Positions 1 through 15,086 of a stretch of DNA of 54,814 nt are shown here, piece by piece. A program made the position numbers and the translations under genes. The stretch is from Zoogloea sp. (lineage in GTDB: Bacteria; Pseudomonadota; Gammaproteobacteria; Burkholderiales; Rhodocyclaceae). A model generated the notes under the pieces. That model saw only the letters and a list, made by a program, of their open reading frames with translations, was not told the origin of the DNA and made no database searches. Location: contig NZ_JAOAUU010000072.1 in NCBI RefSeq assembly GCF_030157465.1, forward strand, positions 1 to 54,814, read 5' to 3'. The stretch's first letter is position 1; each line of letters begins with the position of its first letter.

Positions 1-930
1 GGTGATGCTGACCGTGGCGCTGGCCAGGGTGGCGGTGTCCACGTCGGAGACGGTCAGGCCGGTGTCCACCGCGGTGGCGCTGTCGTTCTCGGTGTAGGCC
101 AGCGCGCTGCCGCTGGTGGTGACAACCGGGGCGTCGTTCACCGCGGTGATGGTGATGTCGCGCGTGGCAGCGCTGCTGCTGGCGCTGCCGTCACTGGTGA
201 CGAAGGAAACCGTGCGGGTGGCCGCGCTCGGATTATCCGAGGTGTTGATGTAAGTAACGCTGCGCAGCGCCGTCTGGTAGTTCGCCAGCGTGGCACTGCC
301 GCTGAGTGTCAGCACGCCGGTGCCGGCGCTCCAGCTGCCGGTGATGCCGTTCTGGTTGGTGAAGGCCAGGGTGTCCTGGCCAGTGACAAAGCCGGCGGTG
401 ATGCTGACCGTGGCGCTGGCCAGGGTGGCGGTGTCCACGTCGGAGACGGTCAGGCTGCTGTCCACCACGGTGGCGGCGTCGTTCTCGGTGTAGGCCAGTA
501 CCGTGCCGGTAGTGGTGACAACCGGGGCGTCGTTCACCGCGGTGACGGCGATGTCGCGCGTGACGGCGGCGCTGCTGGCGCTGCCGTCACTGGTGACGAA
601 GGCAACCGTGCGGGTGGCCGTGCTGGGGGCGTCCGAGCTGTTCAGGTAGGTGACGCTCCGCAGCGCGCTCTGATAGTTCGCCAGCGTGGCGCTGCCGCTG
701 AGCGTCAGCACGCCGGTGCCGGCGTTCCAGCTGCCGGTGATGCCGTTCTGGTTGGTGAAGGCCAGCACGTCCTGGCCACTGACGAAGCCGGCGGTGAGGC
801 TGACCGTGGCGCTGGCGAGGGTGGCGGTATCCACGTCGGACACCGTCAGGCCGCTGTCCACCGCCGTCGCAGCAGCGTTCTCGGTGTAGGCCAGTGCCGT
901 TCCAGTAGTGGTGACAACCGGAGCATCGTT
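1..930 (-). repeat. 396-bp tandem coding repeat in the giant gene
   Basis: Two complete copies and one partial copy recur with an exact 396-bp period. The motif beginning GGTGATGCTGACC occurs at 1 and 397, with a variant at 793. A second anchor, GTGGTGACAACCGG, recurs at the same spacing near 115, 511 and 907. Each unit encodes one 132-residue cadherin-like module starting at NDAPVVTT. The copies have no length differences and are nearly identical in long stretches, so recent duplication or gene conversion is likely. More copies may lie beyond the left edge. Confidence 0.9.
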
Positions 931-3900
931 CACCGCGGTGATGCTCACGGTGGTGCTGCCGGTGGCGGTGAGCGCGCCGCCCGTGCCCTGGGCGCCGGTG
1001 TTGCCGTCGTTGAACGTCCAGTTGATCACGACGCTGGCCGGCGGGGTGTCGGAGCTGTTGGCGTAGGCGATCGAGTTCATCACCTCGTTGATTCGTGCCT
1101 GCGTGGCGCTGGAGTTGAAGGTGAGCAGCAGCGTTCCGGCCGAGTGGGTGGTTACGGTGCCAACCGTGATGCCGCTCAGGACGAGGTTGCCGCCCTGGGT
1201 CAGCGCGGCGAGATTGCCGGTCGCCGAGAACACGTCCTGGGCGCTGGCCCCGCCGCTGCGCACCAGCGTGAGCGTGGCGCCATTGAAGTTGTTGGCGGCG
1301 CTGAGTTCGGTGTCGTAGATGCGGACATTGCTGTCGAGAACGACGGCCGAACCGTTTTCCGTGTAGCTGACGGTGCCGCCAAGCGAGGTGGTGCCCGAAT
1401 TGGCACGGGTATCGAGTTCGCCGCTGCTCGTCAGGCGGGTCAGGACAAAATCCTGGCTACCGCCATCGCTGGTATAGCCCGCCGCAACGATGCGTCCATC
1501 CGGGGCCACATCAACGGCATACAGGATTTCCAGGAATTTCAGATTGATCGTCTGCTTGCCGTCTCCGCTGAAGCTGGTGTCCAGCGAGCCGTCGGACAGG
1601 TAGCGGGCCACCGCAAGGTCGTAACTCCCGGTTCCGCCGGCCACTACGATCTTGTCATCGCTCTGCAGGCTCATGCCCCAAACCGAGTCGCCGCTCCCCC
1701 AGTTGGTGGTGACAATGCCGTCGCCGCCGCCAAAACTGGTGTCGAGTGTGCCGGTGCTCGTGTAGCGGACGATGGTGAAATCGTTGTCGCTTAAACCGCG
1801 CGAATAGCCCCCGACCACGATCTTTCCGTCGGATTGCACCTCGACGGCCTGGGCGATATTCCAGTCGGTGCTGATGGCAGTGGTGACGATGCCGTCGCCC
1901 CCGCCAAAGCCGGTGTCGACGGAGCCATCGGCGTTGTAGCGGACAAGGGCAAAATTCTGCACACCTCCAACAAAGCCCGTACCGGCCTGAACGATCTTGC
2001 CGTCGGTCTGGAGCGCCAGGCCGCGGCCTTCGTCGTTCGCGATGGCGATATCCAGGGTTTGCTTGCCGTCCCCGCTGAACGAGGTGTCGAGCGTGCCGTC
2101 GGACAGGTAACGGGCTACGGCAAAGTCGTTTGCCGAGGTTCCGCCCACCACGATCTTTCCGTCACTCTGCACCAGCACGGCCGACACCGTGTCGTTGCTA
2201 CTGGCGCCGAAATCGGTGATGACAATGCCGTCGCCGCCGCCAAAGGTGGTGTCGAGCAGGCCGTCGGCCGTGTAGCGAAGCACGGCGAAGTCAAAGAACG
2301 TGCCGTTCACCGTGCGACCGGCAACCAGGATCTTTCCGTCGGCCTGGAGCGCCACCGCGTACGCCTCGTCGTCGCCGGTACCGATGGCCTGGGTAACGAT
2401 GCCGTCGCCCCCGCCGAAGCCGGTGTCGAGCGTGCCGTCTGCGTTGTAGCGCACCAGCACAAAATCGAGGTTGCTGCCGTTGTGGGTATAGCCGGCAACG
2501 ACGATCTTGCCGTCAGGCTGGACGACCGTGGCGTAGGCCCGGTCGTTGCCGGCGCCGATGGACGTGGCCGCAACGAAATCCGCCGCATCGAATGTGGGAG
2601 CGTCATTGCCCGCGGTAACCGTAACGGCAATGGCGCTCGTCGCGCGATCGAAGTCGATGGCCAATGCCCCCACCTCGGTGGCCGTCAGCGCGCGGTCATA
2701 GATGCGCACGTCGTCCAGCTGGCCCTCAAAATCGAAGCCCGGCGTGGTGGTGGGGTGACGGCCGATGTAGGTGGTGGTCGCGCCCGTGTAATAGATGGTG
2801 TTGGTGTTGGCCGCCGAAACGATGAGGCTGCCGTCGATATACAGCGAATGCACATCATTGGCATCGTCGAACACATACATCACGTGGTGCCAGCCGGTGC
2901 CGGCAAGAAAGCGGTTCGAGTTCAGGTCGGTCCAGGCCCCGGCCGAGACCTGAACCGAGCCCTTCACACCGCCTGCATCGTCCAGCGCAAGATGCACCCG
3001 GTCGTTGAGCGAAATGAACTCGGCCCTGCCGGACGAGAGCGCAGACAGGTTCACCCAGCCACCGACCGTGACGTTCGGTGCTTGCCCGAACAGGCTGTCG
3101 ATCTGAAGCGCATCCCCATTGCCGTCGAGATTCAGCACCTCGCCCCGGGCAGGGTCAGTCACAACGGTGGCGTTGCCCAGAAGGGTGCCGTTCTGCATGG
3201 TTCCGGCGGCCTGGTCAGCCGCGCTGCCGCCGGAGAACGGGTAGTAGCCCGCCAGGTCTGCGGCCAGCGCAGAGGTGACGCTGATCGACGCGCTGCCGTT
3301 GAAATTGCCGGCAGGCGTGAACACCAGCCCGTTCAGCGCGGCATTGAGCGCGCTCTTGGTGCCCCACAGCACCATGCCAGCGCTGCCGTTGGCGCCGCCC
3401 ATGATCGTGAGACCAGCCGTGCCGCCGAGCGTCAGCGTGCCGTTCGGCGATGCCAGCGCCACCTGCAGTCGTCCGTCGCCGGCCATGCCGTCGCCCACGG
3501 TGATCGCGTTGCCGTTGACGGACGAAAAGACCAGCGAGCCATCCTCGGCCACGGTCTGCGTCGGGGGCACGGAGACCGTTGGCCCCGCCGCAACGGAATT
3601 GATGTTGGCGCTGAATTCCGAGGTACCGCCGTAGGTGCCGCCCCCCAGATCCACCGTGGCCGTCGCGCTCACGACACGGCTGCTTGTCATGCCTGTGCCG
3701 GTCAGGCGCACGCTGAAGCTGGCGTTACCGCTGGAGTCGGTGGTGACGCTGGCGGCCCCCAGGAACACCTGACCCTCGCCATGGGCACTGGCGTCGCCCG
3801 ACACTGAACTGAAAAACTCGAGGCGGAAGGTGGTGGACGCAGTGGAGTTCAGCGTGCCGACAATCAGCACCCGGTCACCCCCATAAGTCGCCGATGTCAG

Positions 3901-6900
3901 GACGGGGTAGTTCTGGAGGGTGTTGGCGCCGGTATCTCCGTCGCCGGTGTCATTGACCTCCACGCTCCCGTTGTCGCCCAGGTCGATGCCCAGAGTGCTG
4001 TTGCCGACGATGGCGTTGCCAAGAATTGTGGCAGTGCCAAGCCTCACGTCCAGACCACGGCCGGTGTTGTACGCAATGAGGTTGCCCAGGCCGGCACCGA
4101 CGCCGCCAATCGTGGCACTCGCGCCGTTGAGTACCAGAACGCCGCCATAGCCGCCGTTGCCCACCGCTGTCGTGCCGTCGCTGCCCGCACCGATATAGTT
4201 GCCTTGCAGCAGGTTGCCGGTAACGGGGGCACCGTTGAAGGAAACCCCGCCCAGGTCGTTGCCGGAGATTACGTTGCGCAAGGCCGCGCTGCTGCCCCCG
4301 ATGACGTTGTTGCCGCCCGAGACTTCCAGGTCTAAGCCCCACTTGGTATTGCCGCGATCAAGCAGGCCGGTGGTGTCGGTACCGATGTAGTTGCCGGTGA
4401 TCAGGTTGCCGCCCGAGCCACCTTCGATACGAATGCCGCTCAGGGAAAAGCGGTTGATGACCAAGCCCTTGACCGTGCTGCCCGAACTGCCGCTGCCCAG
4501 CAAGATGCCACTGGAAGAAGCACCGGCGCCGGCACCGTTGAGCTCAATCACCGGCGTGCCGGCGAAGTCGGGCTCAACGGTGCCGTCGATGATCACGGCC
4601 TGCGTGACGGTGGGCAGGGCCGCGGTGAGGGCGATCGAATGGGGCCCCGGGCCGGCGATGCTGAACTCAATCCGGTCTGCGCCACCCGTGCCGTTGGCGG
4701 TGTTGTTGGCCGCGATGATCGCCTCGCGCAGGCTGACGAAACCATCGCTGCCCTTGTTGGCCAGCAGCGTGCTGAGGCTGGTGGTGTCACCATCGTTAGC
4801 GGCGCTGGTGTCGCTGACGGTATCGACGGTGATGCTTGCCTGGGTGCTCGAAATCGCGGCGACACCGCGTGAAAACTCGGAGGTCTCGAAGGTAAAGCCG
4901 CCGCTGTAGCGCGATGCCGTGGCGGTAATGTACTGGCCCACGGCCACGGCAACCGAGAACGGGTTAGAGAACGTGACATCGCCGCTGGCATTGGTGGTGA
5001 CGACAAAAGTGCCCAGGCTCGTCCTTCCTTCGCCATAGCCGCCAGCATCCAGCGTCGGGTTGGAGAAAACCTCGATCTTGAAGCTGGTACTGGCGGTGCT
5101 GTTCAAGGTGCCGCCCACGGTCAGCGTGTCGCTGCCGTTGGTCTTGGCCAGGGTCAGCACCGGGAAGTTCTGCAGCTGGTTGGGGCCGGTGTCGGCATCG
5201 CCCGCGTCGTTGGCGGTAACGCCGGCAACGCCCAGGTCGATGCCCATCCCCACGTTGGAGTAGATCGAGTTGGCGCTGATGCTGATGTTGGCGCCTCCCG
5301 TGCCGAGCACTGCGATGCCCGCATCGTAGGCACTGCTCTGCCCGCTGAAAGCCACCGTGTTGCTGGAGATGTAAATATTGGTGGGCCCGGCACCGCCAAG
5401 GGAGTTTTCGATCAGGATGCCATTTGCCTGCATGCCCCAGTTGGCTGTGCCCGCCACATCGGTGCCGATGCGGTTGTTGCGAATGTTCGTGCCGGCGGTG
5501 GGGCCATCGACCTCCACCCCCTCCAACCCGGCGGCGATCCAGTTGCCCTCGGCAGCCGTCGAGCCGCCCACATTGGTGCCGTCGGCGCCGGAACTGATGT
5601 AAACACCATCACCGCTGTTGCCCAGCGTGGCCGTGCCGGCGGCATTGATGCCGATCCAGTTGCCCCGCACGGTGTTGTTGTCGGAGGTTTCGCCGTCAAC
5701 CTGGACGCCATCCTGGTTGTTGCCGCTGATGATGTTGCGGTGTCCGGCGGTGCTGCCCCCCAAGGTGTTGCTGCTTGCCCCGGCTTCAATAAGCACACCG
5801 TCCGCGGTGTTGCCGCGATCGAGCAAGCCGGTGCTGTCGGTGCCGATGTAGTTGCCGACGATCAGGTTGCCGGTGGCCGACGCGCCGCTGACGATAACGC
5901 CGCTGGCGTTACCCGAGATGATGTTGCGGGCGCCTGCCGTCGTTCCGCCAATGGTGTTGTTGGCCGAGTAGATCGCCACACCGCCCGCGGCATTGCCCAG
6001 CACCGTACTGCCGTCGGCGGCCAGGCCGATGACGTTGGCGGACACGGTGGTGGACGAGGCAGTCGCGCCCAGCCGAATGCCTTCGAAGTTCAGCGTACCG
6101 GCGATCACGTTGCCGTATGCGGTGCTGCTGCCCCCCACCGTGTTGGACGCACCGGATTCGATCAACACCCCCAAGTTCAAGTTGCCGACGGCAGCCGTGC
6201 CGGCGGCGTTCAGGCCGATGTAGTTGCCGCGAATTTGGTTGCCCGTGCTGGTGGCGTTGTCGGTGCCGATATAAACGCCTTCTCCCGTGTTGCCCGACAG
6301 CACGTTGCGATCGGCGGCGGTAATGCCGCCGATGATGTTGTTGTTGGCGTTCCAGATATTCACGCCCTGCTGGTTGCCGGCCGCCCCCGTGCCGGCGGAG
6401 TTGAGGCCGATCCAGTTTCCGGCGACGGTGTTGCCGCTGGACGAGCCGATGTCGATGCCGTCCTGCGTGAAGCTCTGGATGATCAAACCGCGAATGGTGC
6501 TGCCGCCCGAGCCGGGGTAAAGCCGAAGGCCGTCCTGCACGATATTGCCACCGTCCAGCACGATGGCCGGGCGACTGCCCGCCGCGGTGAAGCTGTCATC
6601 GGTGGTGGCGTCGATGCTGAGCGCGTCGACGATGTCGGGCAGCAGCGAGCCCAGCGTGATGGTGTGGATGCCGGTGCCGCTGATCGCAAAATGAATGCGG
6701 TCGGCGCCACCGGAACCATTGGCCGTGGCGTTGGCCGCGGTGATCGCCTCGCGCAGGCTGATCTTGCCGTCCGTGCCCTTGTTGGCCATCAGCGCGGCGA
6801 TGCTGGTGGTCGTGCCGTCGTTGGCGCCGCTGGTGTCGCTGGTCGTATCGACAACAAGGGTATTCACCGTATCGTTGTCGGTATTGATGAGCGACACGTC

Positions 6901-8487
6901 GGCGGGATTCAGTCCGCTGTAGGCCGGGTCGGTGCTGGTGGCCGCCGCGGTGAGCACCGAAAACGCGGTGTTGCCGTCGATGTAGGTGTCGTCCACGCCC
7001 GTCACCGTCACCGTCTGGGCCACGTTCCAGTTGGCGGTGGTGAAGGTCAGGCTGGAGGCCGACAGCGTGCCTTCCCGGGTGTTGGAACTGGTGAGGCCGA
7101 CCGTGACGTTGGCCGTCGGGGCGCTATCGAGCACAACGCTGAACTGCGCGGTGCCACCGCCTTCGGTCACCGTCAGCCCGCTGATCGGCGTAACCGTGAT
7201 GCCAGCCGCCGCCTTGAGCGACACGGCCCCGATCACCCAGTTGGTGGATGAACCAAAACTGCTGCTCATCTCGACCGACGCCGCGCCGGCTTCCGAGGTC
7301 GAGCCGCCGGTGATGCTCGCGTTCTGCTGCGACCACGTGATGGTCTGCCCCGGACCGGGCGCCCCGCCACTCGGCAGGCCCTGCCACGACTGGGCATCGA
7401 TGACCAGATCGCCAGGCGCACTGGCCACCGTGACCGAAACCGTCGTGCTGTTGCCAAACGCGCTCACGAAACTGCCACGCACCGGCGTCGTCTGATCGAC
7501 CCCGTTGTAGGTCGTCGCCCCGCCGGCCGCCGCGGTCGTCGCCGAAAAACTGGCCACGACGCTGGCCGTACCCACCGTCGGGTTGACCAGTTTCCAGATC
7601 TCGACCGGAACAACGCCGCTGCTGGAACGACCGACAAGCGTCATCCCCACGCCGCCATAGGTCACCCCTGTGGCATATGTTCCGCTCGTACTGATGGACA
7701 GCTCCACGAACATCACGCGATTGCTTCCGGCCGCAACCGTGTGCGACCAGCTCAGGGGCGTCGTGCTGGTGTTGGTGGTGTTGGTGGACGTCGCCGTGCC
7801 GTTGGCGCTGATCGCGAGAATGCCGGACCACGCCTGTTGCTCAAACACGCTGGGCGCAACGGCCGTTTCGATGCTGCCGGTGGTGTATTCCAGGTTCCAG
7901 TCGCCCCCCAGCGCCGCGGCACCGGTGAGGTCGTCACTGGCCGCCACGTCGGCGCCGGTCAGCTGGGCCAGGGCCGATACGAGCGAACGGCCACCCGCGT
8001 CGGCGGCCACGTCACATCCATAAAGCAGCAGATCGGCATCGACGCTCAGCGCATCGCCCCACGCGGCGATCTCGCCGGCCCGCAGGAACACGGATTCCGC
8101 GTCGAGGCGGGTGGCGCCCACTTCGGCCACGCCTGCGCTGCCGTGCCCAAGCACATGCACGGCCGCAATGTCGTGACGCCCGGCAAGGCTTGCGCCGATC
8201 AGCGCAAGCCCATCGTCGTCGCTGCCTACCACGAAGACTTCGACGGTGCGCCCGGCACGCTGCTGGGCAGCCAGATCGTCGAGCAGTTGCTGGATATCCG
8301 GCACCCGCGAGTCGACAAAAACCAGTTCGCTGCCGCCCTGCTGCACCGCGCCGCCGGTGCCGTTCCCCGGCTGCTCGAAACCACCCAGCACGGCCGCGGC
8401 CAGGCCTGCAGGGCCGGGATCGGCCGAATACAGAATGCGCGACTCGAAGGTTTCGATCAGGGCCTTGGGGTGCCGGCGAATGTTCAT
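1..8487 (-). CDS. Giant mosaic surface/secreted protein, LEPR-XLL-like N-terminus plus DUF4347 (3' end outside window)
   Basis: The frame is open for 2829 codons from ATG 8487 to the left edge, so the C-terminus is missing. The N-terminus has no hydrophobic signal peptide but carries FESRILYSAD, close to the LEPR-XLL motif of giant exported proteins. Modules seen, with approximate residues: DUF4347 54-205 (HGSAG, LLYGCDVA, GADVAASDDLTGAAALGGDW); an Ig/Calx-beta-like stretch 420-535; right-handed beta-helix repeats (NxIGG, GNYIG) 616-1096 and 1310-1513; a LamG/concanavalin-like domain 1743-1950; about seven delta-60 beta-propeller repeats (DGKIVVAG, LDTSFGGGDGIV) 1970-2356; then 132-residue cadherin-like repeats to the edge. 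The start lies 12 bp after the adaptor gene, whose stop is embedded in a purine-rich site (TGAGGGG). It is the last visible gene of the operon. The family suggests a secreted adhesin or matrix protein; its ligand is unknown. Confidence 0.92.
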   Translation of the reverse strand, partial: MNIRRHPKALIETFESRILYSADPGPAGLAAAVLGGFEQPGNGTGGAVQQGGSELVFVDSRVPDIQQLLDDLAAQQRAGRTVEVFVVGSDDDGLALIGASLAGRHDIAAVHVLGHGSAGVAEVGATRLDAESVFLRAGEIAAWGDALSVDADLLLYGCDVAADAGGRSLVSALAQLTGADVAASDDLTGAAALGGDWNLEYTTGSIETAVAPSVFEQQAWSGILAISANGTATSTNTTNTSTTPLSWSHTVAAGSNRVMFVELSISTSGTYATGVTYGGVGMTLVGRSSSGVVPVEIWKLVNPTVGTASVVASFSATTAAAGGATTYNGVDQTTPVRGSFVSAFGNSTTVSVTVASAPGDLVIDAQSWQGLPSGGAPGPGQTITWSQQNASITGGSTSEAGAASVEMSSSFGSSTNWVIGAVSLKAAAGITVTPISGLTVTEGGGTAQFSVVLDSAPTANVTVGLTSSNTREGTLSASSLTFTTANWNVAQTVTVTGVDDTYIDGNTAFSVLTAAATSTDPAYSGLNPADVSLINTDNDTVNTLVVDTTSDTSGANDGTTTSIAALMANKGTDGKISLREAITAANATANGSGGADRIHFAISGTGIHTITLGSLLPDIVDALSIDATTDDSFTAAGSRPAIVLDGGNIVQDGLRLYPGSGGSTIRGLIIQSFTQDGIDIGSSSGNTVAGNWIGLNSAGTGAAGNQQGVNIWNANNNIIGGITAADRNVLSGNTGEGVYIGTDNATSTGNQIRGNYIGLNAAGTAAVGNLNLGVLIESGASNTVGGSSTAYGNVIAGTLNFEGIRLGATASSTTVSANVIGLAADGSTVLGNAAGGVAIYSANNTIGGTTAGARNIISGNASGVIVSGASATGNLIVGNYIGTDSTGLLDRGNTADGVLIEAGASSNTLGGSTAGHRNIISGNNQDGVQVDGETSDNNTVRGNWIGINAAGTATLGNSGDGVYISSGADGTNVGGSTAAEGNWIAAGLEGVEVDGPTAGTNIRNNRIGTDVAGTANWGMQANGILIENSLGGAGPTNIYISSNTVAFSGQSSAYDAGIAVLGTGGANISISANSIYSNVGMGIDLGVAGVTANDAGDADTGPNQLQNFPVLTLAKTNGSDTLTVGGTLNSTASTSFKIEVFSNPTLDAGGYGEGRTSLGTFVVTTNASGDVTFSNPFSVAVAVGQYITATASRYSGGFTFETSEFSRGVAAISSTQASITVDTVSDTSAANDGDTTSLSTLLANKGSDGFVSLREAIIAANNTANGTGGADRIEFSIAGPGPHSIALTAALPTVTQAVIIDGTVEPDFAGTPVIELNGAGAGASSSGILLGSGSSGSTVKGLVINRFSLSGIRIEGGSGGNLITGNYIGTDTTGLLDRGNTKWGLDLEVSGGNNVIGGSSAALRNVISGNDLGGVSFNGAPVTGNLLQGNYIGAGSDGTTAVGNGGYGGVLVLNGASATIGGVGAGLGNLIAYNTGRGLDVRLGTATILGNAIVGNSTLGIDLGDNGSVEVNDTGDGDTGANTLQNYPVLTSATYGGDRVLIVGTLNSTASTTFRLEFFSSVSGDASAHGEGQVFLGAASVTTDSSGNASFSVRLTGTGMTSSRVVSATATVDLGGGTYGGTSEFSANINSVAAGPTVSVPPTQTVAEDGSLVFSSVNGNAITVGDGMAGDGRLQVALASPNGTLTLGGTAGLTIMGGANGSAGMVLWGTKSALNAALNGLVFTPAGNFNGSASISVTSALAADLAGYYPFSGGSAADQAAGTMQNGTLLGNATVVTDPARGEVLNLDGNGDALQIDSLFGQAPNVTVGGWVNLSALSSGRAEFISLNDRVHLALDDAGGVKGSVQVSAGAWTDLNSNRFLAGTGWHHVMYVFDDANDVHSLYIDGSLIVSAANTNTIYYTGATTTYIGRHPTTTPGFDFEGQLDDVRIYDRALTATEVGALAIDFDRATSAIAVTVTAGNDAPTFDAADFVAATSIGAGNDRAYATVVQPDGKIVVAGYTHNGSNLDFVLVRYNADGTLDTGFGGGDGIVTQAIGTGDDEAYAVALQADGKILVAGRTVNGTFFDFAVLRYTADGLLDTTFGGGDGIVITDFGASSNDTVSAVLVQSDGKIVVGGTSANDFAVARYLSDGTLDTSFSGDGKQTLDIAIANDEGRGLALQTDGKIVQAGTGFVGGVQNFALVRYNADGSVDTGFGGGDGIVTTAISTDWNIAQAVEVQSDGKIVVGGYSRGLSDNDFTIVRYTSTGTLDTSFGGGDGIVTTNWGSGDSVWGMSLQSDDKIVVAGGTGSYDLAVARYLSDGSLDTSFSGDGKQTINLKFLEILYAVDVAPDGRIVAAGYTSDGGSQDFVLTRLTSSGELDTRANSGTTSLGGTVSYTENGSAVVLDSNVRIYDTELSAANNFNGATLTLVRSGGASAQDVFSATGNLAALTQGGNLVLSGITVGTVTTHSAGTLLLTFNSSATQARINEVMNSIAYANSSDTPPASVVINWTFNDGNTGAQGTGGALTATGSTTVSITAVNDAPVVTTTGTALAYTENAAATAVDSGLTVSDVDTATLASATVSLTAGFVSGQDVLAFTNQNGITGSWNAGTGVLTLSGSATLANYQSALRSVTYLNSSDAPSTATRTVAFVTSDGSASSAAVTRDIAVTAVNDAPVVTTTGTVLAYTENDAATVVDSSLTVSDVDTATLASATVSITAGFVTGQDTLAFTNQNGITGSWSAGTGVLTLSGSATLANYQTALRSVTYINTSDNPSAATRTVSFVTSDGSASSSAATRDITITAVNDAPVVTTSGSALAYTENDSATAVDTGLTVSDVDTATLASATVSIT

Positions 8488-8499
8488 TCGGTCATCCCC

Positions 8500-9426
8500 T
8501 CAGCGCCGGGGTTTTTCCTTGAACGAAGAAAGGCTGGAGTCCATGTGCATGCCACCCACAAGCCTAGCCCCGGTGCCTGCAACGGGCGCTGCCGCAAGCG
8601 GCGCCGGCTCGCTGAAGGTGATCCGGCAGCGCAGACCGGCTGGCAGGCGCTGGTCGGCATTGGGCAGTGCAAGGCGAACCCGGAAGGTGTTGCTGGCCGC
8701 ATCGACCACCTTGTCGACCAGAGCGACAGTGGCCTCCACCGGCCCCGCGCCCGGCAGCTCGGGCTTCACGCTGGCCACGTCGCCGGCACGGATGGTGCCG
8801 AAGCGGGCGGCCGGCACGATCACCTCGATCCGCAGCGGATCGATCTTCGCCACCCTGAAAACCGGCTTTTCCTCAACCCGCTCACCCTGCGACAGGTAGC
8901 GCTCGACCACTACGCCGTCAAAAGGACTGCGAATCACGCGCAAGCCCACCTGGGCCTGGGCCACCCCGAGTTCGCGGCCCCACACCCGCAATTGCTCGCG
9001 GGACTGCAGCATCTTGTGCTCGGCCACCTGAAAATCGGTGCGGGCCTGGTCCAGCGCCTGCTGGGCGATGAAGTTTTTCGCTACCAATTCTTCTGCCCGG
9101 CGCATTTTCTGGCGGGCCAGATCCCGGTTGGCCTCAGCGGCGCGCAAGTCGGCCTCGGTTGTCGCGCGGGAGCGCGCCACTTCGGCGGTGGCCCGCTCCA
9201 CATCACTGCGCAGCGCAGCCAGCACCTGTCCCTTCTTCACCACGTCGCCGCGTTCGACCCGAAGGCTTTCCAGCACGCCAATGACGGAACTCCCAAGATC
9301 AGCCACCCTGTCGGGCTCGATCAGGCAGCCGAGCGTCGACGGCGCGGCGGCCGGGGCAGCAGCGGCAGCCACCCAGGACAAGCTCCAGCAGACACAGCAC
9401 ACAATCCATTTCGACATTGTCATCAT
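8500..9426 (-). CDS. HlyD/RND-type periplasmic adaptor protein with cleavable signal peptide
   Basis: This 308-residue membrane-fusion protein starts at ATG 9426, which overlaps the SecA-like stop as ATGA; ATG 9423 and 9417 are alternatives. An N-terminal hydrophobic stretch (VCCVCWSLSWVAAAAA) looks like a Sec signal peptide with no retained membrane anchor. The lipoyl-type first half follows (GVLESLRVERGDVVKKGQVL), then an alpha-helical hairpin of about 100 residues (AEEL, QALDQARTDF). The returning half is IRSPFDGVVVERYLSQGERV, followed by a beta-barrel segment ending PAGLRCRITF. Known adaptors of this fold bridge an inner-membrane transporter to an outer-membrane channel. No ABC or RND pump and no TolC gene is seen beside it, so the partner here may be the upstream lipoyl-domain membrane proteins. 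The giant gene follows 12 bp downstream. Confidence 0.88.
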   Translation of the reverse strand: MMTMSKWIVCCVCWSLSWVAAAAAPAAAPSTLGCLIEPDRVADLGSSVIGVLESLRVERGDVVKKGQVLAALRSDVERATAEVARSRATTEADLRAAEANRDLARQKMRRAEELVAKNFIAQQALDQARTDFQVAEHKMLQSREQLRVWGRELGVAQAQVGLRVIRSPFDGVVVERYLSQGERVEEKPVFRVAKIDPLRIEVIVPAARFGTIRAGDVASVKPELPGAGPVEATVALVDKVVDAASNTFRVRLALPNADQRLPAGLRCRITFSEPAPLAAAPVAGTGARLVGGMHMDSSLSSFKEKPRR

Positions 9427-11384
9427 TCCCCGGGACCGCAAAAGGACAATCCCTTATCCCACTCGCGATCCGCCGCCAGCAAACTGCGCCGCGCACGTCT
9501 TTCCCTTTGCGCCTGCCCCCACTGGTAACCGGCCAGCACCCAGCGCAACAGACGCGGGCCCAGCACGACCCGACCGTCCTCATCCTGCTTGGCCCGCTTT
9601 GCCAGCGCACCGAGCAGCGACACTTCGGCCACCCGCGGCGTGGCAATGCTGATCCACGTCTCGACGCTTCCCGGATCACCCTGGCGGGCACAACGCCCCT
9701 CCAGCTGCCGGTCGATCCGCCGCGACGCATTGAACTGACAACACATCACATGCAGCCCCCCCGCCGCCGCCACACCGGCAGCCAGCGGAATATCCGTCCC
9801 ACGCCCGGCCATGTTCGTCGCCACCGTAACCTGGCCGGGCTCACCGGCCCGCGCCACAATTGCGGCCTCCTCGGCATCAAAGCGGGCATTGAGCACCGCG
9901 TGCCACACTCCGGCCGCCGTCAAGCGCGCCGACAAGGCTTCAGACTCGGCAACCGAGGCGGTTCCCACCAGCACCGGCCGACCCTGCCCGGAGAGCTCCG
10001 CCACCCTTCGGGTGACAGCATCCCACAAAGCGTTTCCTGCCCCGTATAAACGGCCCGGCGCCGATTTTCTTGAGCTTGGCATACGTGGCGAAATGCACAC
10101 TACATCCAGTCCATACACCTCGCGCAGCTCTGCACGCGCTTCGCGAAGCGTGCCGCTCATGCCACCAAGACGGTGATACCGGGGGAAAAACCGCTGAAAG
10201 GTGATCTGCGCCAGGGTTTCGGCGCCGGGCGAAGGGCGGCAACCCTCCTTCAGCTCGACCAGGCCGTGCAACCCCCGCGACCACACCCGGCCGGGTGCGG
10301 CCCGACCGGTGATCTCGTCGACGATCTCGATCTTTCCGTCGCGCACCAGGTAATGCACATCGCGCCGATACAGGTGCCGAGCGGCCAGCGCCATGCCCAC
10401 CACCTCGTCGCGCAGGCGGGCCGAGCGCCAGCGCCCCCCCAGCGGCAGCGCGCGCTCAAGCAGGCGCGCGCGCCCGGCCCCGGTAAGCTGAACCCGCATG
10501 GCGACGGCATCCGGATGAAAGTCGCGGCCCGATTCCAGCTCGCCCGCCAGTGACCAGGCCTGCCAGAAGAAGGCCCGCGCCGCACTGTCCTGCACCTGGC
10601 GCGAAAGGATCAGCGGCATCATCGCCTCGTCGATCAGCAGGCTGTCGGCTTCATCGACCACGGCCATGCACAAACCGCGCAGCAGCGGCCGGCCCGCTTC
10701 GGTACCGCTCAGGGTGGCGGCCCGGCGCTGCAGATCACTGCGCGCAAAGCCCCGGCGCTGGCCATCACGCAAATAATCGAAAACCAGCTCACGGGCGGTG
10801 ACGTAGCTCACCGACGCCGCGTAGGCGATACGACGCCGGGCCTCGTCCATCGGCCCGGTCACGTAGTCCACCCGCAGCCCCAGGCTGCCGAAGAAGGGCG
10901 CGAGCTGGGTGGCGTCACGCTCCACCAGATAATCATTGGAGGTCAAGACATGCACCGGCATGCCCGCCAGCGCCCCCACGGCCGCGGCCAGCGCAGCGGC
11001 AAGGGTCTTGCCCTCCCCCGTCGCCATCTCGGCGAGGCGGTTGTCGAGCATCACCAGCGCAGCGTGGATCTGGGTGTCGTAGGCGTCCACACCCAGGCTG
11101 CGGCGGGCGGCATCGACGGCTGCAGCAAGCGCCTCGACGACGCGCTCGCCGGTCAGTCCGTCGCGACCGAGCCGCCCCTGCTCAAGCCTCAGGCGCGCCG
11201 CAAAGGCGGCCTCGTCGAGCGCCCGCCACATCACCACGGCGGCCCGCACCGCTGCCAGGCGCTTCCGGTAAGGGGCCCGCTGCCACGGCCAGCGGGTCCG
11301 CGGCGCCTCCCGACGCTCCGGGTAGGCTCCCCACACCAGCCCCGGCAAGGGGGCGCGAAGTTCGAGATGGCGCGGCAAATTCAT
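9423..11384 (-). CDS. SecA-like ATPase, C-terminally shortened
   Basis: The protein has 653 residues from ATG 11384, which overlaps the M50 gene stop as ATGA. It aligns by eye with SecA: AEMATGEGKT (Walker A, residues 121-127), SNDYLVERDA, FDYLRDG, VVDEADSLLIDEA (DEAD 244-247), EIVDEITGRAAPGRVWS, GGMSGT, VLNARFDAEEAAIVA, NMAGRGTDI and QLEGRCARQGDPG. Both nucleotide-binding folds are therefore present with their catalytic motifs. After the last motif only about 80 residues remain, so most of the helical-wing/scaffold region and the C-terminal zinc motif of the roughly 900-residue housekeeping SecA are absent. I infer a dedicated accessory SecA that powers export of an operon product, most likely the giant protein. 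It is not the general SecA, because its neighbours are export and adaptor genes. Confidence 0.9.
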   Translation of the reverse strand: MNLPRHLELRAPLPGLVWGAYPERREAPRTRWPWQRAPYRKRLAAVRAAVVMWRALDEAAFAARLRLEQGRLGRDGLTGERVVEALAAAVDAARRSLGVDAYDTQIHAALVMLDNRLAEMATGEGKTLAAALAAAVGALAGMPVHVLTSNDYLVERDATQLAPFFGSLGLRVDYVTGPMDEARRRIAYAASVSYVTARELVFDYLRDGQRRGFARSDLQRRAATLSGTEAGRPLLRGLCMAVVDEADSLLIDEAMMPLILSRQVQDSAARAFFWQAWSLAGELESGRDFHPDAVAMRVQLTGAGRARLLERALPLGGRWRSARLRDEVVGMALAARHLYRRDVHYLVRDGKIEIVDEITGRAAPGRVWSRGLHGLVELKEGCRPSPGAETLAQITFQRFFPRYHRLGGMSGTLREARAELREVYGLDVVCISPRMPSSRKSAPGRLYGAGNALWDAVTRRVAELSGQGRPVLVGTASVAESEALSARLTAAGVWHAVLNARFDAEEAAIVARAGEPGQVTVATNMAGRGTDIPLAAGVAAAGGLHVMCCQFNASRRIDRQLEGRCARQGDPGSVETWISIATPRVAEVSLLGALAKRAKQDEDGRVVLGPRLLRWVLAGYQWGQAQRERRARRSLLAADREWDKGLSFCGPGE

Positions 11385-13540
11385 GTGCCCGGGTTGAAGT
11401 GGCGCAGGAACAACTGCTTCAGCTGACGCCCCCACTGCACGGCAAGCGGCGCCCAGCCATGGTCGAAGCGCACCCAGGCCCGGCCACCGGCCCGGTCGAG
11501 CACCTGGCCGTCGAGAACGAGGTCGAAGACGAAAACCGGTGCTGGCGTGCGCTGGTGATCCTTGTCGGCCGGGTCAACCGGCAGCGCCCCGCCGGCGTAT
11601 TCGCCCAGCGCAGCACTGGGCAGCTTTTCGGTGGCAGCCGGCACCGCTCGCAGCAGGCGGGCCGGCAGCGCGTGTTCCGGCGCCTCGGCAAGCCGCACCG
11701 AAAAACCGCGCGTACCACTGCGCACAAGGGCGGCCACGTTCTGCTCCACGGCCACCCGAACGGTGGCAGCTTCGCCGGTAAGGATGTGCCCGAGCAGCGC
11801 ACCGCGGGGCACGAAAGCCCCTTCCACGTCGGCCTGCCGAGGCATGGCCAGCTGGCCGCTCACACCGGCCCGCAACACCAGGTAGCCCTGCAACTCCTCG
11901 ACACGCCCAAGCCGCGCCTTGATCCGCTCGATCTCGGCTTCGACGTCGCGGACCTTGACCGGATCGCGCTGCATGGCCTGAAAAAGATCGGCATCGAGGC
12001 CTTCGAGCTGACTGCGCAGCTTGCCGGCCTCGGCCACCAGCCGCGCGTCCTCGAGCCGTGCCAGCACCTGGCCCGCCGCAACGTGTTCGCCGTTACCGGC
12101 CTCCAGCGCCAGGATGAACCCGTCGGTGCCCGCCCGCACCTGGGCCTGCTCGGGAACCCACACGACCCCCAGAGCCGTCGTCGCAAACGGAAACGGCACC
12201 AGGCCGACGAGGACAAACACCGCCAGGCTCAGCACACCGGCAGCACGCAGCGCCCGCCGGCGCTGCTGCACGGGCAGGGCCATGCGCAACAGGTTGCGCC
12301 AGAAGATGAATACGGGCTTGAGAAACAGCGCAATCACCAGCCCGACGCCGGCCAGCGTGCCCAGAACCATCGACCAGCTTCCGACCCAGCCGACGATGGC
12401 AATCGACAGCAGCACCCGGCATACCCACGACGCCGGCGCGTAGAAAAACAGCCAGGGCCGCTCGCCCCGCCCCGGCTCGGGCGAGGGCACATCGGCAAGG
12501 TGCAGCAATTTGCCGAGCAACAGGTGACGCCAGAAGGCCTGGCTGCGGGTTGCCAGATTCGGCAGGTCGAACGCGTCGCACAGCACGTAGTAGCCGTCGA
12601 AACGCAACAGCGGGTTGCCGTTGAACAGCACCGTCGACACCCCGCCGATGACCGCCACCACCAGCGCCACGTCACGCACCAGGCCGGGCTCGACCAGCAC
12701 CCAGACGATCAGCGCAAGGGCCGCCAGAAAGAGTTCGGCAATGATGCCGGCCGCGCTCACGACCAGCCGCTTGCCGGCATTACGCAAGGCCGACGCGGCC
12801 GAAGCATCGACATAAGGTGCCGGCGTGAGCAGCAGCAGACTGATGCCCATCTCGTGCACTTCGCCGCCAAAACGGCGAATCGCCAGCCCGTGGGCCAGTT
12901 CGTGGATCGCCTTGATCGGCGGATAGAGCAGCCAGGCGATCAGCAGGAAGCGCGGCGTCGACATCCAGGTGCGCGCGGCAGAAGTCAGCGCCTCGGCGTA
13001 CATCGCCGCAATCACCACGCCGGCCACCACCACCGCCAGCCACACCAGCAAGGCAGGGATCGAAACAAGGGTGCGCAACCAGGGATCGAAACGGGCCAGA
13101 AGGCTGCTCGGGTCGCCCAGGCGCAGCTTGAAGGCCAGCGGGTTCACGCCCGCACGGCGCACCTGGCGCTGTTCGCTGTCGTGTCGCTTGAAGATCGCCT
13201 CCACGTCCGGCGTGACTTCGCACTGGATCAGGCCGCGCTGATTGAGCTGTACCAGCAGGCGCACGATTTCATCCTGGGTCAGCGCCGTGTCCGGGTCATC
13301 GGCGAGCAAGGCCTCGGCCAGCGCATCGACGCTGCGTGTGCCGTCGCAGCGCCCCACAAACGCGTAGGCCGCGGCGTTCATGCGGTGAAAGCGCCCGCTC
13401 ACCGGATCGGCCAGCACGTACCACGCCTCGTCCCGGTAGATCTGCCGCGTAACCCGCACCTGCGCCCGCAGGCTCGGATGGAGTTTTGCCACCCGGTACC
13501 ACTGGCTGCTGAAGGCGCTGCTGGTTTGACTGGAACTCAA
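11381..13540 (-). CDS. PqqD-like / M50 metalloprotease / HlyD-lipoyl fusion membrane protein
   Basis: I place the start at TTG 13540, one base after the upstream stop and behind GGGGACG, giving 719 residues. Residues 27-106 resemble a PqqD/RRE fold (WYVLADPVSGRFHRMN, then LVQLNQRGLI). A polytopic M50 (site-2 protease-like) core follows, with zinc motif HELAH at 213-217 and the second-ligand motif NGNPLLRFDGYY (Asp315). A further transmembrane helix near 437-458 leads into a lipoyl-type hairpin adaptor (DGFILALEAGNGEHVAAGQVL at about 473-493, a coiled coil at about 500-555, then the returning half). PqqD-type domains bind leader sequences and M50 enzymes cleave within membranes. The fusion therefore suggests recognition and cleavage of an exported substrate while forming part of an envelope conduit; this role is inferred. 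The gene overlaps the SecA-like gene by ATGA. Confidence 0.85.
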   Translation of the reverse strand: MSSSQTSSAFSSQWYRVAKLHPSLRAQVRVTRQIYRDEAWYVLADPVSGRFHRMNAAAYAFVGRCDGTRSVDALAEALLADDPDTALTQDEIVRLLVQLNQRGLIQCEVTPDVEAIFKRHDSEQRQVRRAGVNPLAFKLRLGDPSSLLARFDPWLRTLVSIPALLVWLAVVVAGVVIAAMYAEALTSAARTWMSTPRFLLIAWLLYPPIKAIHELAHGLAIRRFGGEVHEMGISLLLLTPAPYVDASAASALRNAGKRLVVSAAGIIAELFLAALALIVWVLVEPGLVRDVALVVAVIGGVSTVLFNGNPLLRFDGYYVLCDAFDLPNLATRSQAFWRHLLLGKLLHLADVPSPEPGRGERPWLFFYAPASWVCRVLLSIAIVGWVGSWSMVLGTLAGVGLVIALFLKPVFIFWRNLLRMALPVQQRRRALRAAGVLSLAVFVLVGLVPFPFATTALGVVWVPEQAQVRAGTDGFILALEAGNGEHVAAGQVLARLEDARLVAEAGKLRSQLEGLDADLFQAMQRDPVKVRDVEAEIERIKARLGRVEELQGYLVLRAGVSGQLAMPRQADVEGAFVPRGALLGHILTGEAATVRVAVEQNVAALVRSGTRGFSVRLAEAPEHALPARLLRAVPAATEKLPSAALGEYAGGALPVDPADKDHQRTPAPVFVFDLVLDGQVLDRAGGRAWVRFDHGWAPLAVQWGRQLKQLFLRHFNPGT

Positions 13541-13541
13541 T

Positions 13542-14993
13542 TCAACGTCCCCACCAGCCCCACAAGCCGATGCGGACCCAGTCGGTGAGGCGATGGGTCC
13601 ATGCCCACAGCAGCGGTTCGCGGCCAACGGCAATCCTGGCCACGCCGCGCAGGCCCGGGCGCAGGCTGTCCGGCTGGCTGGCCAGCGTTGCCTCCACCTC
13701 GAACACGTTATGCCCTTCCACCGCACTGGCCATGGGCGTGATGCGGATCACCGACAACGGCAGGGTGTCCCAGGGCAGCGCCGACAGGGCCAGGCTGCCC
13801 GCCTGGCCAAGCCGGATGCGCGCGATATCCCGCTCATCGACCTCGACGATCACGCGAAAGCGCTCTCGGGGCGCCACCGTCAGCAGTGCATCACCCCGCT
13901 GCACCGGCGCCCCGAGGGACTGGCTCAGATCGCCACGAATCACCACCCCGTCGAAGGGCGCCTCGATACGGATGCGGCCAAGCTGCTCATCCACCAGCGC
14001 CAGCTGGGCGCGGGCCTCGTCGGCCCTGGACTGGCTGATCACCAGTTGTGCGCGATCCGCCCGCGCCATGGCCGCCGCGTAGGCGTTTTCGTGCTGGGCC
14101 AGTTCGCTGGTCCATTTGCTCCGTTCGAGCTGCAGATCCTGCTCGGCAAGTTCAGCCAGCACCTGGCCGGCTTTCACCAGGTCGCCCGGGCGAACCTCGC
14201 TCGACTTGAGAAAACCATCCACCGGCGCCACCAGCACCCGCTGGATCGCACCTTCGACGCGGGCATTCCCGCCCACGCGGTATTCAAAAGGCACCAGCAG
14301 CAGCACCGCCATGGCCAGAAACACGGCGCCCAGAGCAAGGCGCAAGCGCCCGCTGCCTGGCGCACGCAGACCTGCCCAACTTTGCCGCAGGCGCTTCTGC
14401 AATCGTTTGTTCCAGGGACGCTCGAGCTGCCCCATGAAATGCAGCACCGGCCCGACCAGCGCAATGGCGTCTTCCCACTCGGCAACGCGTCCGGCATCCA
14501 GCGCCACCCCCTGGCGGAACTGGAACAGCACCGCACCCACGAGTTCATGCCTGACGACGATGGGAATGGAGCACACCAACCCGCCTTCACGACGCAGCAA
14601 CTCTTCGTGGGCCAGGATGATGCGCGGCGGCAGATCGGGGCGAGCGGGCGCGATGACGCTCACCGCCTGCTCGATGGCTTCGTCCATGGCTGCACCGATC
14701 GCCCGCAGGGCTTCGGTGTTGCCACCGCCGAGCGCCCCGTGGGAAATGGCGACCACGCGGGAAAACCGGTCCTCGACAAAGCCGACGGCAACCCGCTCAC
14801 AGCCCAGCCGGGTCGCCAGCTCGGTTGCAAACGCCGTGGCAGCCGGGCCGAGCCGCTCATGGGACACCACCGCGGCCTGCAAGGCAATCACGTCAAGGGC
14901 AGAAACCTCAGCGGAAAAAGTCTGGAGCCGGGAGTTCAGGATGGCTGTTCCAAAAAGAATATCGTCCTCGTATTGACGACGCGACAGCCACAA
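13542..14993 (-). CDS. GAF-domain HlyD-like membrane fusion protein
   Basis: This 483-residue protein heads the operon. Residues about 45-190 look like a GAF sensory domain (CERVAVGFVEDRFSRVVAIS; CSIPIVVRHELVGAVLFQF). A single transmembrane helix lies near 216-236 (LALGAVFLAMAVLLLVPFEY). The lipoyl half-motif (VLVAPVDGFLKSSEVRPGDL), a coiled coil, IEAPFDGVVIRGDLSQSLG and a beta-barrel follow. This implies a cytoplasmic GAF domain and a periplasmic adaptor arm. The start is uncertain: TTG 14993 is the first start-like codon after an in-frame TAA at 14997-14999, no strong ribosome site is visible, and no ATG occurs early in the frame. The next gene begins one base after its stop. Coupling of a small-molecule sensor to an export adaptor is inferred. 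Confidence 0.85.
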   Translation of the reverse strand: MWLSRRQYEDDILFGTAILNSRLQTFSAEVSALDVIALQAAVVSHERLGPAATAFATELATRLGCERVAVGFVEDRFSRVVAISHGALGGGNTEALRAIGAAMDEAIEQAVSVIAPARPDLPPRIILAHEELLRREGGLVCSIPIVVRHELVGAVLFQFRQGVALDAGRVAEWEDAIALVGPVLHFMGQLERPWNKRLQKRLRQSWAGLRAPGSGRLRLALGAVFLAMAVLLLVPFEYRVGGNARVEGAIQRVLVAPVDGFLKSSEVRPGDLVKAGQVLAELAEQDLQLERSKWTSELAQHENAYAAAMARADRAQLVISQSRADEARAQLALVDEQLGRIRIEAPFDGVVIRGDLSQSLGAPVQRGDALLTVAPRERFRVIVEVDERDIARIRLGQAGSLALSALPWDTLPLSVIRITPMASAVEGHNVFEVEATLASQPDSLRPGLRGVARIAVGREPLLWAWTHRLTDWVRIGLWGWWGR

Positions 14994-15047: not shown

Positions 15048-15086
15048 AAAAACCCCACCGACCGCAGTGCGGGAAGTAGGGTTTTT
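15048..15086. terminator. Bidirectional hairpin terminator
   Basis: AAAAACCCCAC (15048-15058) pairs with GTAGGGTTTTT (15076-15086) with one mismatch, giving A and T tracts on both sides. It lies between the 94-residue gene and the export operon, about 55 bp upstream of the operon's first codon, so it probably separates the two units. Confidence 0.65.

Follow-up and report, generated by a model that had tools for sequence, protein, structure and literature searches.

The question raised by this locus is how a giant protein, encoded at the end of an operon, is recognised, processed and led out of the cell. The window analysed here is contig C70, positions 1-54814, of the 4.7 Mb draft genome of a Zoogloea sp.; by window we mean this whole stretch of 54,814 nucleotides. 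It begins with five genes on the minus strand, which encode a GAF-related HlyD-like adaptor (P0005), a fusion of a PqqD domain, an M50 site-2 protease and an HlyD part (P0004), a shortened SecA-like ATPase (P0003), a further HlyD-like adaptor (P0002) and the N-terminal part of a giant protein with a LEPR-XLL leader (P0001). We found that the machine and LEPR-XLL giants form a statistical and positional partnership. The locus is probably a dedicated processing and export machine together with its cargo, in which the leader would address the giant. The machine itself is known; what we add are the cargo, the leader that marks it, a proposed reading mechanism borrowed from the pathways of ribosomally synthesised and post-translationally modified peptides (RiPPs), and the finding that the SecA-like part is dispensable.

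A class sample, of 276 genomes from the same class as the window, was searched for the PqqD-M50 protein, the NCBI leader model NF012209, DUF4347, a SecA-like profile and a model of LapB-type ATP-binding cassette (ABC) transporters. A protease-domain match of E<=1e-28 counted as M50-positive and one of E<=1e-80 as strong, the split between strong and weak being set after the results had been seen; weaker protease-domain matches, in G052, G004, G136, G206, G023 and G167, were counted as negative. LEPR-XLL (E<=1e-3) occurs in 22 genomes, the PqqD-M50-HlyD protein in 37, and both in 20 (Fisher p=2.4e-18, or 1.6e-17 with the window's own genome removed; all Fisher values given here treat related genomes as independent). 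Sporadic co-occurrence, which the preliminary description of this DNA had named as the outcome that would speak against its model, did not appear, as 20 of the 22 LEPR-XLL genomes carry the M50 gene. With the leader threshold relaxed to E<=0.01, 24 genomes share machine and leader, 13 have the machine only and 4 the leader only; at E<=0.1 these counts become 27, 10 and 17. Among the 22 genomes with a strong M50 match, 17 have LEPR-XLL at E<=1e-3, four carry an adjacent variant leader recognised by eye, and the fifth of the remainder has a match at 0.004. NF012209 undercounts, missing some variant leaders, including that of a second locus in the window's genome. SecA-like genes (>=805 bits) were found in 17 genomes, all of them within these 22; the next SecA-family match, at 612.5 bits, was read as ordinary SecA.

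The association extends to a second phylum, that of Desulfoluna, where 12 of 197 genomes have the M50 gene, 11 the leader (E<=0.01) and 8 both (p=1.6e-9, or 1.9e-8 without the centre genome, which had itself been chosen for its machine). An assembly of Methylorubrum populi likewise holds the machine and LEPR-XLL. DUF4347 was considered as a common mark of the cargo and rejected: it is absent from 7 of the 22 LEPR-XLL genomes, and of the 36 class genomes that carry it, 26 have the M50 gene and 10 do not.

The physical arrangement was followed in a named set, the best 80 of 560 relatives chosen by similarity of the M50 gene. This set overlaps slightly with the class sample, since L119 and G007, and likewise L181 and G165, appear to be identical genomes with the same places. 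The GAF-HlyD gene precedes the M50 gene in all 76 assessable loci. In 69 of 77 assessable loci M50 is followed by a SecA-like match above 290 bits; five loci have none and three a weak one (L135, L142 and L124). L124 is interrupted by a contig end, some of the 69 matches are contig-cut or frameshifted, and that of L192 is shortened (524 codons). The HlyD gene follows in 56 of 71 loci; in 6 it sits at another place in the flank, and 9 showed none. This gene arrangement is far beyond chance.

The giant belongs to the same picture. A LEPR profile built from pattern-chosen seeds, and in that respect partly circular, matched 26 of the 80 named loci in the forward direction and none of the 80 when reversed; the co-occurrence statistics use NF012209, not this profile. 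We then turned to 34 further genomes, all chosen for their machine: 33 of the 54 named loci without a flagged leader, and in addition L185, which has one. LEPR-XLL was matched in 32 of these 34, each with a best E<=6.6e-5, mostly in long frames of up to 14,390 codons, some of them cut by contig ends; giant frame lengths run from stop to stop and thus lie slightly above protein lengths. L123 and L175 also turned out to have an adjacent giant. Of the 50 M50 genes in the 34 genomes, a count that includes distant-type matches, 27 lie within 12 kb of a LEPR-XLL gene, with gene ends computed from stop-to-stop lengths; 23 of the 27 share its strand, 14 upstream and 9 downstream. In the genome G288, three machines are each paired with a neighbouring giant frame of ~12,500-12,900 codons, and the copy numbers of machine and leader are equal in 26 of the 34 genomes (rho 0.72). 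Co-occurrence and linkage together support the preliminary claim of one functional unit that serves as a dedicated route for the giant.

What could read the leader? Among 43 leaders the consensus is E.LEPR[LI]L[YLF]SAD, often preceded by a short basic stretch; since these were picked by pattern, the core Glu and Arg are fixed by choice. On the window's giant NF012209 (LEPR-8K) scores 17.2 bits against a curated cut-off of 17, and 23.5 bits in the genome search. Hydropathy gave no hydrophobic signal peptide at the N-terminus of this giant, the 19-residue maximum being 0.98 in the first 60 residues. In P0004, M50 stays below the Pfam cut-off (23.8 vs 27.2 bits) but its HExxH motif is conserved without exception in two alignments of 20 and 67 sequences, that of the window among them, and an NPLLxxD motif is invariant or nearly so in the 67. 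Profile matches connect P0004 to the PqqD chains 3g2b and 5sxy, and a model of the whole protein (mean pLDDT 90) has an adaptor part that resembles MexA in Foldseek. Among the matches listed, the nearest named relatives are those of Zoogloea, with M50 proteins 69-81% identical.

The nearest named relative of the PqqD and M50 parts is the daptide intramembrane leader protease model NF041824 (4.3e-48); P0004 scores below its equivalog cut-off (164 vs 300 bits) and has the daptide-type combination of a RiPP recognition element (RRE), here PqqD, fused to a site-2 protease with HExxH. In daptide clusters an RRE fused to a site-2 protease is the cluster mark, the precursors share an ELExMEAP motif, and the leader is cut after the conserved Pro of this motif (PMC10036551). 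When Leu(-7) or Met(-4) was changed, modification by the RRE-bearing MpaB with MpaC was lost (PMC10036551), and a preprint places daptide cleavage after ELExxxxx (PMC12338566). Because of this relationship to a leader protease, we propose that PqqD binds LEPR-XLL and that the site-2 protease clips it. If the cut is placed five residues beyond LE of LEPR-XLL, by analogy with daptides, it is predicted to fall just before SAD, near 8427/8428. The role of recognition and cleavage protein, which had been assigned to the PqqD-M50 protein from the outset, is made plausible by this likeness. A search of the main text of two RRE surveys (PMC7470986, PMC12710340) gave no match for M50 or HlyD.

The same resemblance to RiPP leader proteases could also mean that we are dealing with a RiPP-like or small-molecule system, to which the giant is a frequent but unrelated neighbour. 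We consider this very improbable: the partnership persists in trans and in a second phylum, with copy numbers largely equal, and 20 neighbouring frames contain no RiPP-type modifying enzyme (one encodes an rRNA methyltransferase; short precursors were not searched for).

The window's genome (G000 in the class sample) has a second locus on contig C27 (L069, L248), where genes for a TolC-type protein, an HlyD protein, a giant, another HlyD protein and an M50-HlyD protein of a distant type lie on one strand. The giant is one frame of 4173 codons, a single frame following from the coordinates of its pieces. It starts with a basic stretch and the variant leader LALEQRLVFDGA, then DUF4347, and NF012209 gives no score. 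This locus supplies the outer-membrane channel that is not in view at the window locus. It has no SecA-like gene, and the only one in the genome above the family cut-off, besides ordinary SecA, is that of the window. The C27 leader joins a wider pattern. In 6 of the 43 leaders the Ser of SAD is replaced by Asp, and all six come from genomes with the distant M50 type; the C27 leader is also from a distant-type locus, and two distant-type genomes carry the Ser form. G267 holds both M50 types, and its Asp-form leader adjoins the distant one. Matched by eye and in small number, the leader form seems to follow the M50 type, which would fit the expectation for co-evolution of reader and leader.

Several observations weigh against a dedicated partnership of machine and leader. 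G066 and G189 of the class sample have LEPR-XLL at E<=1e-3 without a protease-domain match, and at E<=0.1, a level at which some matches should be due to chance, the leader stands without M50 in 17 genomes. In the second phylum M50 is missing from 3 of 11 leader genomes and the leader from 4 of 12 M50 genomes. One of 14 control genomes, Deinobacterium chartae, searched for the leader only, gave a weak LEPR-XLL match (E 0.01-0.05). Among the 34 machine-chosen genomes, G299 and G309 have no LEPR-XLL match, the match of G304 lies in a frame of merely 86 codons, and 23 of the 50 M50 genes are unlinked to a LEPR-XLL gene, a number of them on short contigs. The M50 protein of C27 has no Pfam PqqD match. 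The likeness between the LEPR and daptide motifs is short and loose in register, with Glu directly before Leu in 15 and two positions before it in 37 of the 43 leaders; on the first of these counts we gave up the idea that LEPR reproduces the daptide ELE motif exactly, and we speak of a likeness. Finally, several giants carry RTX repeats, which are usual in type I cargo, and adhesin-type repeats, and the window's own genome has LapB-type ABC genes.

The last two points favour another explanation, according to which an ordinary type I exporter of the LapB type, with its genes at another place in the genome, carries the giant out, and the role of the module is limited to processing, anchoring or releasing it, as a counterpart of Lap-type retention control. 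GGDEF-type genes, found in the flanks of 13 of the 80 named loci (four seeds; members may be missed), would suit it as well. We judge it decidedly unlikely. LEPR-XLL does not clearly track the LapB-type ABC class (E<=1e-150), the one class compared, which is present in 9 of 22 leader genomes against 64 of 254 others (p=0.13), so that 13 of the 22 leader genomes are without it; as a partner this exporter was dropped. Full-length ABC exporters flank 2 of the 80 named loci, a count from one seed by which members may be missed, and three HlyD-type subunits exceed the needs of processing. A LapB-type exporter flanking the giant in all relatives, the second outcome that had been named as adverse to a dedicated route, did not occur, and the earlier view that no conventional ABC exporter is a standing partner agrees with the flank count. 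A TolC-type outer-membrane gene was seen in the flanks of 8 of the 80 loci (three seeds; members may be missed).

PAS-GGDEF or GGDEF genes stand beside the module in L119, L152, L157 and others, and the GGDEF-EAL gene of L049 is additional to the 13. These neighbours suggest that the giants are under cyclic-di-GMP control.

The role of the SecA-like motor can be judged from the loci that lack it. The protein keeps NBD1, PPXD and NBD2 and reaches into the beginning of the long helix, with no wing and no further C-terminal part; on solved SecA chains, which have 778-844 residues, the profile of P0003 covers residues 13-605, and there is no SecA_SW match. The C-terminal part of SecA that is absent here holds the wing and the two-helix finger. 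In its strict form, the model of the preliminary description makes this motor the essential engine of a conduit of three adaptors, independent of SecYEG. The ATPase motifs, invariant in 16 aligned SecA-like proteins, speak for such a model, as does the presence of the gene after M50 in 69 of the 77 assessable named loci; the missing C-terminal part with its finger speaks against it.

Moreover, no SecA-like gene was found in 5 of the 22 strong-M50 class genomes. Four of these, G184, G165, G170 and G081, have a LEPR-type giant beside M50 all the same; in the fifth, G048, the contig breaks off within the M50 gene. L155 and L181 also come from genomes in which no SecA-like gene was found, and the genomes of L135 and L142 have no intact one. 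At L142 (7306-8943) both Walker A and the DEAD motif are changed and the cross-linking domain, PPXD, is lost, and a LEPR-XLL giant still lies directly downstream. At L135 (12327-13865) a weakly similar frame of 512 codons stands in the motor's place, with no giant in view. Both altered genes possibly encode pseudo-enzymes. Leaving G048 aside, M50 is kept in all the genomes just named, and a giant is linked in all but L135. At L120, L147 and L153 the SecA-like gene is missing from the locus and present elsewhere in the genome, and G070 and G273 are alike in this.

The SecA-like motor is thus usual but dispensable to the partnership of machine and giant. As a defining gene it was rejected, being missing or altered in some loci. 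Since it is missing from some genomes that have both machine and giant, and one genome holds a copy with broken ATPase motifs, the idea that SecA drives the export is weakened, and an essential engine does not agree with its absence from five strong-M50 genomes, the broken copy of L142 and the C27 locus, which has none of its own. We regard the strict model as rather unlikely.

Among the loci with a motor gene elsewhere, L147 comes from a metagenome-assembled genome of the Omnitrophota and has, besides GAF, M50 and HlyD genes, a LEPR-XLL giant that measures ~3100 residues or more.

Returning to a dedicated machine addressed by the leader, export may proceed as follows. In place of a hydrophobic signal peptide, the giant has a stretch of ~25 residues that ends in the LEPR-XLL leader, which the PqqD domain of the PqqD-M50-HlyD protein would bind as RRE domains bind RiPP leaders. 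The giant would then be threaded unfolded through the inner membrane, by way of either SecYEG or the membrane domain of M50 as a candidate pore. The push would usually come from the SecA-like ATPase and, where this is lost, from something else, possibly the housekeeping SecA. Three HlyD-type adaptors could build a conduit across the periplasm towards a channel of the TolC type, the gene for which usually lies outside the locus. The site-2 protease would remove the leader, most likely before SAD, and DUF4347, where present, may later act as a caspase-like self-cleaving or anchoring device.

Tentatively, as a reading that has a serious chance and could well be wrong, we suggest that this is a distinct route for the largest bacterial proteins, addressed by a leader of RiPP type, in which an RRE-protease-HlyD protein reads the N-terminal LEPR-XLL, cuts it off before SAD within the membrane and directs the chain into a conduit of three adaptors and a TolC-type channel, and a wingless SecA is a replaceable booster. 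If this is true, RiPP maturation and the export of giant proteins use one recognition logic. RRE domains, which are known from RiPP pathways, are here proposed to address very large proteins too, and a route is offered for proteins with frames of 8,000 to 15,000 codons. A predicted secretion locus known since 2015 gains a cargo, and the short leader makes its function testable. The SecA-free variants point to where the true inner-membrane step should be sought.

The cargo proteins carry cadherin-like, Ig-like, delta-60, lectin and RTX repeats. For DUF4347, which in the window's giant comes directly after the leader, the model gives, with high confidence, an alpha/beta domain at ~residues 50-180, and its best Foldseek match is caspase-3 (2.1e-4, TM 0.34), followed by a type VI effector, with flavodoxins from rank 10. 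The His and Cys noted in Table 1 are invariant in 15 aligned giants, at a spacing near that of the caspase dyad. A self-cleaving protease would be a fair guess for this modelled domain.

Among 17 complete giant C-termini, a full HExxHxxGxxH metzincin motif lies near the end of four, possibly as part of a C-terminal protease or anchoring module. In the giants of L228, L230, L237 and L243 it is found ~90-145 residues before the end, and [IVL][DN]W then follows in L228, L230 and L237. This second motif occurs in the last 130 residues of 9 of the 17 giants (shuffle mean 0.8). It was dropped as a common C-terminal signal, being found in 20 of 160 inner windows and counted after it had been noticed.

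The features of the window locus are collected in Table 1. Reading frames and junctions confirm five minus-strand genes that fill 1-14993 and abut or overlap, as had been described. The stop of gene 1 ends at 13542 and is followed, after one base, by the TTG start of gene 2 at 13540. An ATGA overlap joins the M50 and SecA-like genes (ATG at 11384, stop ending at 11381) and another the SecA-like and HlyD genes (ATG at 9426, stop ending at 9423); the gap between the HlyD gene and the giant, 8488-8499, has 12 bases. The domain assignments were largely borne out, with HlyD or lipoyl matches in P0002, P0004 and P0005, SecA_DEAD, PPXD and P-loop_SecA in P0003, PqqD beside the sub-cut-off M50 in P0004, and DUF4347 and the leader in the giant. 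For the so-called GAF-adaptor, the HlyD part stands; no GAF model matches P0005 itself, and GAF is scored by five of six examined relatives, the Zoogloea relative being the one without. P0005 has one strong transmembrane segment by hydropathy (~residues 214-242), and its lipoyl/barrel part lies C-terminal to it.

Table 1. Features of the five-gene locus in the window, in order of transcription
Feature	Position	Strand	Basis
Gene 1, P0005: inner-membrane HlyD-like adaptor with GAF-related N-terminal half, 483 aa, TTG start	13542..14993	-	domain matches, hydropathy
Gene 2, P0004: PqqD-M50 site-2 protease-HlyD fusion, 719 aa from TTG 13540	11381..13540	-	profiles, model
PqqD (RRE-type) domain of P0004, proposed reader of LEPR-XLL	13226..13420	-	Pfam PF05402, 3.5e-7, above cut-off
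HExxH zinc motif of the site-2 protease	12890..12904	-	invariant in aligned relatives
Gene 3, P0003: shortened SecA-like ATPase, 653 aa	9423..11384	-	profiles
Walker A of the SecA-like protein; G140, G142 and K143 invariant	11007..11018	-	alignment
Gene 4, P0002: HlyD-like periplasmic adaptor, 308 aa, hydrophobic N-terminal segment	8500..9426	-	RND_mfp above cut-off, hydropathy
Gene 5, P0001: giant cargo, N-terminal 2829 residues, cut by contig end	1..8487	-	frames, domains
LEPR-XLL leader (IETFESRILYSADPGP) of the giant	8407..8460	-	NF012209, genome-wide E 3.2e-4, above cut-off
DUF4347 domain of the giant	7816..8325	-	domain match; possibly caspase-like fold; His 115 and Cys 158 invariant
Laminin-G-like lectin domain of the giant	2671..3126	-	PF13385, 3.4e-21

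The first base of the contig interrupts the giant, and nothing is readable to the left of position 1. When the frames of the window were compared with seeds, one for ABC exporters and three of the TolC type, they yielded no ABC exporter and no convincing TolC-type gene, with one match of 13 bits in an 81-codon frame. Just upstream of gene 1, a terminator-like hairpin with a T-run lies on the minus strand at 15056-15069. It suggests that the operon starts independently of the upstream genes; terminator-like sites in the region are about twice as frequent as expected from shuffling (13 vs 6.1). Further along, at 17362-18504 and 18511-19779, an M14 zinc carboxypeptidase with an N-terminal domain of the cytosolic-carboxypeptidase type stands beside a DUF445 protein; both are ordinary chromosomal neighbours.

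How does this machine compare with known systems? LapBCE/LapA type I secretion combines an HlyD-like adaptor with a giant repeat adhesin as cargo, some of which have RTX repeats. The locus shares with it the HlyD-like adaptor, the giant repeat cargo and the RTX repeats of some cargo, but differs in that the module is without an ABC exporter, the cargo has an N-terminal leader rather than a C-terminal signal, and a site-2 protease is present. Accessory Sec (SecA2) likewise uses a second, shortened SecA; adaptors and a site-2 protease are foreign to it.

The daptide protease MpaP, as described in the parts of PMC10036551 and PMC12338566 considered here, has an N-terminal RRE on an intramembrane site-2 protease and removes a leader with a short acidic motif. 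It acts on short peptides, and those descriptions do not speak of an HlyD part, whereas P0004 carries HlyD and a giant substrate is proposed for it. A Vibrio protein of ~8000 residues with a LEPR-XLL domain ends in RTX and serralysin domains (PMC10868602). It has the same N-terminal domain as the giants described here, some of which likewise show RTX repeats and, close to the C-terminus, a metzincin motif; in the sections of that paper considered, it is not tied to an export machine. In the literature searched, which lay largely outside subscription journals and bioRxiv preprints, we found no link between LEPR-XLL and the machine.

The preliminary description was not aware of a system with this composition. 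However, a four-gene module of GAF-HlyD, M50-HlyD, SecA_DEAD and HlyD has been known since the work of Kamneva, Poudel and Ward in 2015 (PMC4452313), where this gene order is given for Methylobacterium extorquens (AM1). In their secondary SecA_DEAD proteins the wing-scaffold is absent or fragmentary, no ABC transporter is nearby and a TolC-type gene is sometimes present; the authors guessed that SecA is the ATPase and M50 the pore (PMC4452313). No cargo is mentioned in the sections of this paper considered here, and LEPR-XLL, DUF4347 and PqqD do not appear in its text. The window has the same clustered gene set, with GAF by homology, and its SecA is likewise without the wing-scaffold. To this locus of 2015 the present analysis adds the cargo, the leader and the dispensability of the SecA-like protein.

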